The notes under the pieces: generated by a model | Databases searched by the model: none | What the model was told of the DNA's origin: nothing | Seen by the model: only the letters and a program-made list of their open reading frames with translations | Part shown: positions 8,051-13,526 of the stretch, piece after piece | Position numbering within the stretch: the first letter of the stretch is position 1 | Layout: every line of letters starts with the position of its first letter | Translations under genes and position numbers: made by a program | Source of the DNA: a virus | Reading direction: 5' to 3' (one strand) | Virus record (IMG/VR): IMGVR_UViG_3300049727_000049 | Coordinates: 1 to 22,087 of that record | Length of the DNA stretch: 22,087 nt

Positions 8051-8307
8051 CTACATATAGTCTGTTAAGTGCTGTACAATGTACTGTAGAAATACTGTTT
8101 ATATAAAAGTGTTAACCCCCCATCCAACACACTCTAAATAAATCTAACTACTAAAACCGCCCTACATTGTATGCATATGCTTTAGCATATACCTATATCT
8201 TATTATCTCTTGTCATTGCTTTACATACTTACTGGTATCTTTGGGGTTTTAAGTTAGTGGATGAGATTAACCCTCAAAAACGCTATATAAAAATTGAAGT
8301 TCAGATA

Positions 8308-8451: not shown

Positions 8452-8868
8452 CTAAAGTAGGTGTTTCCAATTTCTCCTTGTAGCTGTTCGTATTCTATGA
8501 CAGTTTGAACACACTAATTCACATTGTTCAATCTCTTCCAAAGCGGCTTGTATTCTCCCCTGTTTAGCAAAATTACTAACTTCAGAGCCACGACCATTAA
8601 CTTTACCACCTTCCTTGTGGTCATAATCCATACATACTGGTGGATAAAATTTACCACAATCTTTACACGGGCTATTTCTTTTTAACATTGTAATTTTATC
8701 ACGCAATATTTCTACGTTTTTCTTACTTCTAACATAACGCCTTTTGTTCTGACAAGTCTTACATTGTCCATGTAACCCGTCTTTTGAAGAAAAGTTTTGA
8801 TAAAAGCAATCTCTTAATTTAAATTCTCCACATTCACTACATTGTTTTTTGTTTATTTTGTCATCCAT
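8452..8868 (-). CDS. Free-standing HNH endonuclease with zinc-binding cysteines
   Basis: This 138-aa protein has an N-terminal cysteine pair (CSEC, Cys10/13) with CKTC (Cys36/39), and the HNH core: CKDC (Cys68/71), MDYDHKEG (Asp83, His84), and CELVCSNCHRIRT (Cys120, Cys123, His124). The layout is typical of stand-alone phage HNH nucleases, which nick or cut DNA and spread as homing genes or aid packaging. It has its own promoter and a likely terminator, separating it from the early operon. It points away from the late genes. A homing role is likely because it interrupts the control region, but a packaging role cannot be excluded. Confidence 0.85.
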   Translation of the reverse strand: MDDKINKKQCSECGEFKLRDCFYQNFSSKDGLHGQCKTCQNKRRYVRSKKNVEILRDKITMLKRNSPCKDCGKFYPPVCMDYDHKEGGKVNGRGSEVSNFAKQGRIQAALEEIEQCELVCSNCHRIRTATRRNWKHLL

Positions 8869-8921
8869 ATGTATAAGTATATTCTTTTTATAATTTAATG
8901 TTAAGAGTACACTCCCCTCCC

Positions 8922-8950
8922 ATTGTATTGTTTTAAGAACAAGATGTCAA
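8922..8950 (-). promoter_or_regulatory. Near-consensus promoter of the HNH gene
   Basis: Minus strand: TTGACA (8945-8950), 17 bp, TACAAT (8922-8927; 5 of 6). The start would be near 8915, giving a ~47-nt leader before the ATG at 8868. It is back-to-back with the rightward promoter whose -35 begins 28 bp away. Confidence 0.7.
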
Positions 8951-8977
8951 ATTAACAGGATTATACATATAAAAGAC

Positions 8978-9006
8978 TTGACAATCTTTTTGTATTCATA
9001 TAAACT
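8978..9006 (+). promoter_or_regulatory. Predicted sigma70 promoter of the late-side leader
   Basis: TTGACA (8978-8983), 17 bp, TAAACT (9001-9006; 4 of 6); a TATAAA two bases earlier is an alternative -10. Transcription would begin near 9013, right at the 5' base of the leader hairpin (9015). It is the only good rightward promoter before the packaging genes. Confidence 0.55.
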
Positions 9007-9014
9007 TCATTTAT

Positions 9015-9081
9015 GCTAGGAAAGAAGAAAGACAACTTCATAGTTGACGTAATAATCAAGCATGCAGCTGTCTTTCTTAGC
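9015..9081 (+). promoter_or_regulatory. Leader stem-loop with alternative pairings
   Basis: GCTAGGAAAGA (9015-9025) pairs with TCTTTCTTAGC (9071-9081) over 11 bp with one G-U. A nearby AAGAAAGACA can pair with the same right arm instead, and the right arm CTGTCTTT (9068-9075) is also fully complementary to AAAGACAG at 9136-9143, the first strand of the structured RNA downstream. Mutually exclusive helices next to a terminator suggest a switch. Confidence 0.45.
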
Positions 9082-9092
9082 AAAAAGACGTT

Positions 9093-9126
9093 AGACCGCA
9101 ACCTATTTAGTTAGGAGCGGTCTTTT
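9093..9126 (+). terminator. Intrinsic terminator/attenuator in the leader
   Basis: AGACCGC (9093-9099) and GCGGTCT (9117-9123) make a 7-bp GC-rich stem; CCTA/TAGG extends it internally around a 6-nt loop, and a short T run follows. It lies ~80 nt after the predicted start and before the large structured RNA, so it would either end a small RNA or act as an attenuator. Confidence 0.65.
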
Positions 9127-9133
9127 GTATTGT

Positions 9134-9338
9134 GTAAAGACAGACTGGTTGTAGGGTAGTGCCAGTATAAAAATACATCCTGCGGATAATTTATGGTGTT
9201 CTGTTGCCGAGGGTAGAACTAAGGTACACGGTGGAGAAATCCACCCTTTGAACAGGACATCATAATGAAAGCCATCTAAGCCCTTAAAGAAGGCGAGCAC
9301 ACGAAGACATTCGTTCAGATGGTATAAGTTGTCTCTAC
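9134..9338 (+). ncRNA. Candidate ~205-nt structured RNA (four-way junction)
   Basis: The segment folds by eye into a closed multibranch RNA. The closing helix pairs 9134-9143 with 9329-9338 (10 positions, one A-C mismatch). Arm 1 pairs 9144-9148 with 9162-9166. Arm 2 is a 15-bp helix, 9191-9205 with 9251-9265, two G-U pairs, and contains a perfect 6-bp hairpin with a GAAA loop (9230-9245). Arm 3 pairs 9271-9277 with 9317-9323 and contains two small hairpins (9280-9294; 9301-9314 with a GACA loop). No coding frame fits here, and base composition is visibly richer in G and C than the flanks. It is upstream of the packaging operon. I recognise no known family: it lacks the marks of tmRNA, RNase P RNA, group I introns and hammerheads. 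Possible roles are a cis-acting antiterminator, a riboswitch-like leader or a packaging RNA. Confidence 0.6.
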
Positions 9339-9415
9339 TTTTATTATTAACCTTGCAACTGATTTGTATTCACATAGCAATACATTCAAAGTGGGAGGAC
9401 TATATCTAAGACATT

Positions 9416-9649
9416 ATGGATTGGAATAAACTAAAAGAAGAAAGGTGCCCGATGTGTAGTGATTTTTTAAAGCATCGTGTTGCAAATAGGAAGACAAAGA
9501 TAAGAGCAAGACATTACAGCGATATAAAAGATGATATGTATTTTTGTTTTAAGTGTGACTTCCAAATAAGCCAACACAAATTACTAAAGATAATTAAACA
9601 AGAGGGAATAAAACCCAAAACTTTCACAACTGGCTTGCTACAATTCTAA
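9416..9649 (+). CDS. Small zinc-finger protein (77 aa)
   Basis: First gene of the rightward block. It has CPMC near residues 11-14 and CFKC near 44-47, a split zinc ribbon, within a basic protein (FLKHRVANRKTKIRARHYSD). The C-terminal third is helical (HKLLKIIKQEGI). There is no Shine-Dalgarno at normal spacing. It stands 24 bp before the small-terminase-like gene, so it may assist DNA recognition for packaging or regulate late genes; no family is recognised. Confidence 0.65.
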   Translation: MDWNKLKEERCPMCSDFLKHRVANRKTKIRARHYSDIKDDMYFCFKCDFQISQHKLLKIIKQEGIKPKTFTTGLLQF

Positions 9650-9672: not shown

Positions 9673-10125
9673 ATGCCACGCCCTAAAGGAAGTAAAAATA
9701 AAACGGCAGTTGATGAGCAATCAAGAAGAATTGATTTACTTGATTTAAAAGAGGAGATGCGACTGAAGTTCCTAGAAGAGCATCCGAACTTCGACAACAC
9801 CAGAAAGAACATCGCCCTACCCGAAGTACCCGTAACCCCATTAAACGCCTCTGAGGTCCTTGTAGGGGCTATGAATAGGGTTATAGGAATATATAACGAC
9901 ATCGCTGCCTCTATTACTTCTGATGATATAAAGAAGATGAAACCAAATGAGAAGATTCTCGCTCTACAGAAACTATCCTACTTGCATGGAGCAACCAAGA
10001 AGATGAAGCCGACTTCCGTGAAGTTCCTACAGATAAATACAAATAATAAAAGTGCGGGGGAACTAGAGAGTGCTCTATTAGAACTTAATCGGGACGAGGA
10101 GGAACAAGACAATGCACAAGGATAA
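9673..10125 (+). CDS. terS: Putative small terminase subunit (TerS-like, 150 aa)
   Basis: TerS proteins recognise phage DNA and load it onto the large subunit. Evidence here is mainly position just upstream of terL and size (150 aa). The N-terminus PRPKGSKNKTA is a short basic, AT-hook-like stretch common in small terminases of this kind. The rest is helical (DLLDLKEEMRLKFLEEHP; IGIYNDIAASITSDDIKKMK) with an acidic C-terminus (NRDEEEQDNAQG). The start context is ATAAATATATG. The 3' end overlaps the next small gene by 14 bp. A different DNA-binding protein is possible. Confidence 0.55.
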   Translation: MPRPKGSKNKTAVDEQSRRIDLLDLKEEMRLKFLEEHPNFDNTRKNIALPEVPVTPLNASEVLVGAMNRVIGIYNDIAASITSDDIKKMKPNEKILALQKLSYLHGATKKMKPTSVKFLQINTNNKSAGELESALLELNRDEEEQDNAQG

Positions 10126-11948: not shown

Positions 11949-13526
11949 ATGCAATACACAAAAGAATTTGAGGGGAAGGAGGCAAGAGAAAAAATGTTAG
12001 CTGGGATGGAACGAGTTTTTAAAATGGTAGCACCAACATACGGTGGCAATGGTCGCAATGTTGTTTTTAATAAATGGAGTGGAACACCCGTCGCTTCAAA
12101 CGATGGAGAAAATATCGCAGATAGAGTTATTCCTCAAGACGAGTCTGAACAGCAAGGAGCTAATTTGATAAAGCAGGTAGCACGAAATACCAATGCGATT
12201 CTAGAAGATGGTTCAACTGCAACCTATATTAATTCTTTTACTCTAGCTAAGAAGGGGCATGAGATGCTTGCTTCTGACCCACGCATTAGTCCTGTCAAAC
12301 TACGAAAGGAGATGAAGGAGGCGGCGAAGAAAGTCTTAGAAGAAATTAAAAATTCAGTTATCCCGATTAATGATATTACAGACCTAGAAAAATTAGCCAT
12401 CACTTCAGTTGAAGATGTTGAATATGGGAAGACAATTGCTAAAGCGATATATGATGCAGGCGATAATGGAATAGTCTATGTAAATGAGACAGACAAGGAA
12501 GGTATGACAGTTGAACAAGGAGAGGGGTATCAATTCCACGAAGGAATGATTACACCCTACCTGATTTCTAATATTGACCGAATGGAAACCAAACTAGAAG
12601 ATGTGGCTGTCCTTCTAACCGAGGTACAACTTAATTTCCCAGACAACGATGTTCTTAAATTGGTTGATGGAATTGTTTCTTCTGGTACTAAGAATATTCT
12701 TATCATCTGTGACGAGCTCCACCCAAAATTAATTGAGTTTGCTTATAAGAACCGTTTCGCTGGTAAATTTAATATGTGTATTGTAAAGAAACCAATGGCA
12801 AAAGATGCCCTTGAAGATATTGCCTCCGTTCTTGGAGCAACTGCAATGACTCAAAATAAGGGATTAATTATTCCACGAATGGAATATCTAGGTAGGGCAA
12901 AAAAGATTGTGGTAACTCAAAAGACGACAACCATTTATGCAGACGAAAATATTATTCCAAAGACACAGAGTTATATTGAATCTCTAAACAAACAATTAGA
13001 AACCATTGAAGACGAAATCTCTAAATCTAAATTACAGGAAAGAATTGCTAAACTAACTGGTAAAGTATTTACTGTTAATATCGGAGCAACCACTGAAGCA
13101 GGGTTAAAACAGTTACGAGATAAAGCAGACGATGCGGTAAATTCTCTTAGAAAGGTTTGGAAAAATCGTGAAGACGGCGTGGTAGCAGGAGGAGGTTCCG
13201 CCCTCTATCACATAGGTACCCGCCTTTCAAAAGGTGAGAACCTAACGAACGGTGAAAAAGTTGTCTACGACTCTTGTAAGGCAACCATGCTTCAAATGCT
13301 TAAGAATGGAGGTGAAGAACCTGCCATGCTAGATAGAATCACCGATGAAGGTGGAGGATATAACGCTCTAACAATGGAATACACCCCCGATATGTTTGCA
13401 GCTGGAATTATTGATGCTACGAAGGTAATTTCTACCTCCTTCACTAATGCCGCCTCCTTTGGAGCCGACTTTGTGACCTACGAAAACCTCATCACAAACT
13501 ATGAAGTTGACACTAAAGCTATATAA
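11949..13526 (+). CDS. groEL: Phage-encoded GroEL-type (group I) chaperonin
   Basis: A full-length 525-aa group I chaperonin: an ATP-driven ring that folds proteins in a closed cavity. The ATP site is intact: Thr30 and Gly32 in PTYGGNGRNV, Asp52 in SNDGENIA, Asp87 in LEDGSTAT, Asp395 (equivalent of E. coli Asp398) in ADDAVN, and GVVAGGG at 410-416. Residues up to Asp87 align with E. coli numbering without gaps. Differences: Pro33/Lys34 are Gly/Asn, a three-residue insertion precedes Gly410 near the hinge, and the C-terminal Gly-Gly-Met tail is absent. On the apical face, Pro202-Tyr203 are kept, but aligned helix I reads KLIEFAYKNRFAG, placing Tyr and Lys at Val263 and Val264. No groES gene is in the window. 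It lies between terL and portal with its own promoter, so folding of head or tail proteins is the likely job. Confidence 0.95.
   Translation: MQYTKEFEGKEAREKMLAGMERVFKMVAPTYGGNGRNVVFNKWSGTPVASNDGENIADRVIPQDESEQQGANLIKQVARNTNAILEDGSTATYINSFTLAKKGHEMLASDPRISPVKLRKEMKEAAKKVLEEIKNSVIPINDITDLEKLAITSVEDVEYGKTIAKAIYDAGDNGIVYVNETDKEGMTVEQGEGYQFHEGMITPYLISNIDRMETKLEDVAVLLTEVQLNFPDNDVLKLVDGIVSSGTKNILIICDELHPKLIEFAYKNRFAGKFNMCIVKKPMAKDALEDIASVLGATAMTQNKGLIIPRMEYLGRAKKIVVTQKTTTIYADENIIPKTQSYIESLNKQLETIEDEISKSKLQERIAKLTGKVFTVNIGATTEAGLKQLRDKADDAVNSLRKVWKNREDGVVAGGGSALYHIGTRLSKGENLTNGEKVVYDSCKATMLQMLKNGGEEPAMLDRITDEGGGYNALTMEYTPDMFAAGIIDATKVISTSFTNAASFGADFVTYENLITNYEVDTKAI

Follow-up and report, generated by a model that had tools for sequence, protein, structure and literature searches.

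A non-coding stretch (9134-9338) that precedes the packaging genes of a virus record is very likely to fold into an intricate RNA; it lies within a longer, strand-specific domain at 9126-9384. Our preferred reading, held at a probability of about 0.42, is that this domain is a cis-acting 5' leader or attenuator domain of an accessory module. The reading draws on sequence features, folding statistics, strand asymmetry and the finding that two close relatives (L013 and L014) lack the leader; from these observations we infer transcription, termination, readthrough and a regulatory role. The window analyzed here is the whole 22,087-base virus record, a fragmentary contig, in which most genes to the left of 8868 are read leftward and genes are read rightward from 9416. 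The features of the region are as follows.

8452-8868, minus strand: HNH endonuclease gene, within an otherwise largely non-coding intergenic region
8950-8922, leftward: divergent promoter partner, predicted from sequence
8978..9006, plus strand: sigma70-like promoter TTGACA-N17-TAAACT, with 10 of 12 consensus matches
9013..9114, plus strand: 33-aa reading frame, with its ATG at the predicted start and its stop inside hairpin II
9014..9082, plus strand: hairpin I, a long inverted repeat (9025-9047/9056-9078) with 23-nt arms that are 83% complementary
9093..9131, plus strand: hairpin II, intrinsic-terminator-like (hairpin 9093-9123), AGACCGC...GCGGUCU, -15.3 kcal/mol, followed by the U-tract UUUGUAUU
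9126..9384, plus strand: structured RNA domain with revised boundaries, 259 nt, branched interior, two outer helices
9134..9338, plus strand: interval as first flagged, which holds the domain core and whose closing helix is an alternative fold
9191..9265, plus strand: robust central arm, a 15-bp helix that encloses two inner hairpins, one of them GAAA-capped (9230-9245)
9416..9649, plus strand: 77-aa Cys-rich protein with two CxxC motifs, the first conventional gene 3' of the RNA
9673..10125, plus strand: TerS-like small protein, assigned by position and about 50% identical to the genes preceding TerL in L013 and L014
10282..11892, plus strand: TerL (terminase large subunit; PHROG phrog_5989, E 6e-19; phrog_2, E 1.5e-18)
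11949-13526, rightward: GroEL-like chaperonin gene (PHROG, E 2e-84)

A 667-aa rightward protein had no PHROG match and was read as the portal, judged from its size and place.

Folding of the flagged interval and revision of its boundaries

The original prediction placed at 9134-9338, ahead of the packaging genes, a structured non-coding RNA that fits no known class, and folding statistics back this. The interval folds at -61.5 kcal/mol with a z score of -3.26 (-3.32 on repetition), and only 1 of 200 dinucleotide shuffles folded as well. As had been claimed, its G+C content (0.43) exceeds that of its flanks (0.31 at 8870-9125 and 0.30 at 9339-9415), and it contains no plus-strand frame of at least 20 aa; a 65-aa minus-strand frame starting with GTG crosses it and is unsupported. 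Rfam gave the interval no match at the gathering threshold and two chance matches, far below threshold, at E<=10, in keeping with the claim that no known class was recognizable. Nor did Rfam match anywhere in the window at gathering, and permissive thresholds applied to the window and to L001 and L002 yielded nothing beyond chance. Membership of any Rfam family, including group I and group II introns, tmRNA, GOLLD, ROOL and riboswitches, was rejected, as no covariance score reached gathering. A tRNA/tmRNA search of the window returned none, leaving either identity unsupported in this record. Retron msr-msd RNA and TnpB guide (omega) RNA were likewise rejected: RVT_1 (retron reverse transcriptase) and PF07282 (OrfB/TnpB-type nuclease) were absent both next to the element and from the whole 22-kb record, with positive controls in each search.

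The individual helices fared unevenly. The predicted 15-bp arm (9191-9205/9251-9265; pair probability, 0.94 to 0.95) and the GAAA-capped inner hairpin (9230-9235/9240-9245; 0.98) were kept in every context folded, and the central arm that they form has a z score of -5.0 when folded alone. The closing helix (9134-9146/9327-9338), the 5' arm and the 7-bp arm (9271-9277/9317-9323) disappeared once both flanks were folded in, and with them went the four-way junction, the interior branching of the native-context fold being different. Since the fold shifts with the ends chosen, a single structure is uncertain. In its native context the domain is bounded by an outer helix of 17 bp (9140-9157/9350-9367; 17 of its 18 positions pair, with a mean probability of 0.96) and another of 8 bp (9126-9133/9377-9384). 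Folding is strand specific only in this longer domain: on the plus strand 9126-9384 has a z score of -4.6 to -5.2, against -1.2 to -1.9 on the minus strand (-4.6 against -1.9 in one run, -5.2 against -1.8 in an exact rerun), whereas the minus strand of 9134-9338 is as stable as the plus strand (z = -3.6). Thirteen of the 86 pairs of the domain are G-U, and the strand asymmetry that accompanies them argues for an RNA that is read rightward. Between the end of the domain and the start codon of the 77-aa gene (9416) lie 31 nt that are predicted to be little structured.

An ordinary, moderately GC-rich spacer that is conspicuous only because it was picked might also look like this, since the coordinates were chosen after looking, no homologue was found and some coding windows elsewhere reach z scores of about -4.4 to -5.2. 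However, these coding windows come from an unselected scan (728 windows of 259 nt across the whole 22 kb) in which the three lowest z scores all fell within 8946-9264 and 6 of the 10 lowest within 8886-9384. We regard a chance origin as improbable.

Anatomy of the leader upstream of the domain

The sigma70-like promoter at 8978-9006 predicts a transcription start at about 9013. In progressive folding from there, hairpins I and II form first, rearrangements occur midway, and three separate domains are present at about 9370 to 9386. Hairpin II was not returned by a simple terminator scan. Because it lies before the domain, the domain cannot influence it co-transcriptionally. The 33-aa frame that begins at the predicted start is possibly a leaderless leader peptide; a frame of that length is not significant in itself. 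Leaderless initiation is conceivable, since most genes of this phage lack a Shine-Dalgarno motif and since TerS of L013 follows its predicted start site by only a few nucleotides. The motif TTGTATTSNNNTA occurs three times around the leader (8923, 8990 and 9364), with 0.26 copies expected in the whole window.

The region of hairpin I (9013-9130) has a z score of -4.7 on the plus strand and -7.5 on the minus strand, and given the greater stability of hairpin I on the minus strand, part of the leader region may act at the DNA level or in the opposite direction. The palindromic region could act as DNA (a regulator, replication or packaging-recognition site) or be a decayed mobile insert, its RNA fold being incidental. 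Its position between divergent operons would suit this explanation, as would the better minus-strand fold of hairpin I and the HNH endonuclease gene at 8452-8868, which is likewise missing at that place in L013 and L014. Yet the strong strand asymmetry of 9126-9384, with its 13 G-U pairs, is not expected of a DNA palindrome, and we consider the explanation unlikely but still a serious contender.

Relatives sharing the terminase and portal genes

Searches with TerL and the portal-like protein gathered two close relatives, L013 (L001/L006) and L014 (L002/L007), and eleven more distant ones. TerL is 74 to 77% identical and the portal 79 to 83% identical between the window and the close pair; among the phage records searched, the portal-like protein had no match. 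In L013, L014 and all eleven distant relatives, TerL and the portal-like gene flank a GroEL-like gene, as they do across the whole lineage (about 30 to 66% identity). A pair of divergent promoters also precedes the TerS operon in L013 and in L014. The rightward promoter of L013 (TTGACT-18-TATAAT) stands directly 5' of TerS; that of L014 (TTTACA-17-TATACT) stands directly 5' of a 145-aa gene, in our reading putatively RNase H-like, which is followed by TerS. Neither phage has a rightward leader, the operon starting within a few nucleotides of the promoter, where the window has 400 nt. The slot between promoter and TerS is thus variable, with nothing in L013, the 145-aa gene in L014, and the leader and the 77-aa gene in the window.

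Other features of these genomes were noted in passing. Most genes of the window, L013 and L014 have A/T-rich sequence and hardly any Shine-Dalgarno motif 5' of their start codons, and the promoters of all three resemble the sigma70 consensus, a combination that may help toward host identification. A 54-nt non-coding block between the divergent operons is about 80% identical between the window (8234-8286) and each relative (L013, 2666-2718; L014, 3706-3758), and a stem within it, GGGGUU/AACCCU and its equivalents, seems to be kept by pairing.

Homologues of the RNA were sought with single-sequence covariance models of the flagged interval (R1, 9134-9338) and the revised domain (R2, 9126-9384). 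Both models matched the window alone among the relatives' records, as did R1 among 80 motif-matched contigs; unfiltered low-scoring matches in L013 and L014 reached at most 10.4 bits and were scattered and background-like. We also rejected an inversion, in which the rightward leader of the window would be the leftward leader of the relatives, flipped: the layouts are alike, but local alignments of the leader with the intergenic sequence of L013 and L014 did no better than shuffles. A blastn search against phages and plasmids gave chance matches only. Two short exact-motif scans of IMG/VR, the second among the matches listed, and one of GTDB genomes found no homologue; of the motif matches considered, that in L025 has only the short motif in common and that in L061 sits within a 901-aa gene. 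Protein searches with the 77-aa Cys-rich protein, used also as a route to the RNA, found no relative. Judged from these sequence comparisons, the domain is an accessory singleton, a term that applies to the data searched, since distant homologues are easily missed by single-sequence models and by exact motifs.

An accessory RNA that is missing from relatives is what would be expected of a moron-type RNA, and the domain, with its self-contained plus-strand fold and long closing helix, might be an independent trans-acting small RNA that is processed from the leader, or transcribed apart from it, and has host or phage targets. Against this, the plus strand of 9130-9415 yielded neither a promoter-like site belonging to the domain nor a terminator after it, and such an independent existence seems doubtful, if well worth keeping in mind.

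Comparison with known systems

Put RNAs sit close behind an early promoter and suppress termination in cis through the zinc-binding domain of the RNA polymerase beta' subunit. In HK022 the put RNA (putL/putR) comprises about 70 nt in two stem-loops and resists terminators further downstream (PMC9378689). A put-like antiterminator, in which the nascent RNA would bind polymerase and make it terminator resistant along the late operon, had been suggested for the flagged element. The likeness lies in a structured RNA close 3' of a phage promoter that heads a long operon, with paired hairpins directly 3' of the predicted start site. However, the domain of the window is branched and, at 259 nt, far larger than put (PMC9378689); it begins about 113 nt beyond the predicted start site and behind the only terminator-like hairpin, and it is missing from relatives with the same late operon. 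We consider a put-like function very improbable.

The suggestion of a packaging RNA like that of phi29 fared still worse. The element is indeed a structured phage RNA that adjoins the terminase genes, but it is larger than the phi29 RNA, had no match to the Phage_pRNA model at either the gathering threshold or E<=10, and is accompanied by a TerS-like gene. Moreover, it is not conserved with the terminase: the two phages with 74 to 77% identical TerL and 79 to 83% identical portal start their packaging operons at a promoter without such an RNA. That the RNA is missing from phages with the same terminase and portal makes both a packaging RNA and a core late antiterminator unlikely, and the former is in our view hardly credible.

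The late leader of lambdoid phages consists of PR', the 6S RNA and tR' and is Q-dependent. The window resembles it in having a late or packaging promoter from which a short leader would run to an intrinsic-terminator-like hairpin ahead of the first genes; on sequence criteria only, this terminator-like hairpin lies within about 200 nt of the promoter (about 115 nt apart; 8978-9006 and 9093-9131). The window differs in having an extra 259-nt structured domain after the terminator-like hairpin, and its nearest relatives lack a terminator at the corresponding place. GOLLD and ROOL are likewise structured non-coding phage RNAs without an assigned function, but they form large, widespread families, whereas the RNA of the window is a 259-nt singleton without an Rfam match.

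A candidate leftward switch in the relatives

A different regulatory candidate was observed behind the leftward promoters of L013 (TTGACA-17-TATAAT) and L014 (TTTACA-17-TATATT), where an attenuator-like switch lies on the minus strand (L013, 3258-3150; L014, 4482-4376). In both, the segment of about 105 nt after the promoter has two mutually exclusive predicted folds, similar in topology despite sequence divergence. The first 80 to 90 nt fold one way (-27.6 kcal/mol in L013 and -30.5 kcal/mol in L014 at 90 nt), and at 95 to 100 nt the fold flips to a hairpin with a U-run behind it (-33.8 and -38.0 kcal/mol, respectively, at 100 nt). The two sequences are alike in little beyond a CCCGAAAGGG hairpin, which is absent from the window, and the stretch just behind the U-run; MAFFT yielded no structural alignment. 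Folding of the two sequences suggests that the switch would behave as an attenuator or a riboswitch-type expression platform, and it is perhaps a more informative and better-supported regulatory RNA than the leader of the window.

Proposed role of the leader

Under the reading that we prefer, the domain would be the structured 3' part of a 5' leader RNA of about 400 nt belonging to the rightward packaging/head operon. RNA polymerase would start at about 9013, make hairpin I and then the terminator-like hairpin II, and often stop near 9130. Transcripts that read through would carry the self-folding domain 9126-9384 and leave a little-structured landing site for ribosomes between it and the 77-aa gene. 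Attenuation, together with a stable or ligand- or protein-binding 5' domain, might in this way gate or tune the 77-aa accessory module and the genes behind it, the module occupying the late promoter-TerS slot that varies among relatives. It is quite unlikely, if conceivable, that a new class of phage accessory RNA is represented here for the first time by the 259-nt domain, which would travel together with a small Cys-rich protein in a module placed between a late promoter and the terminase genes and would act in trans or as a leader that responds to a ligand or a protein.

If real, the domain would be an undescribed structured leader added to a lineage whose portal-like protein matches no phage record searched, and the late promoter-TerS slot would be a place where accessory RNAs and genes are exchanged.
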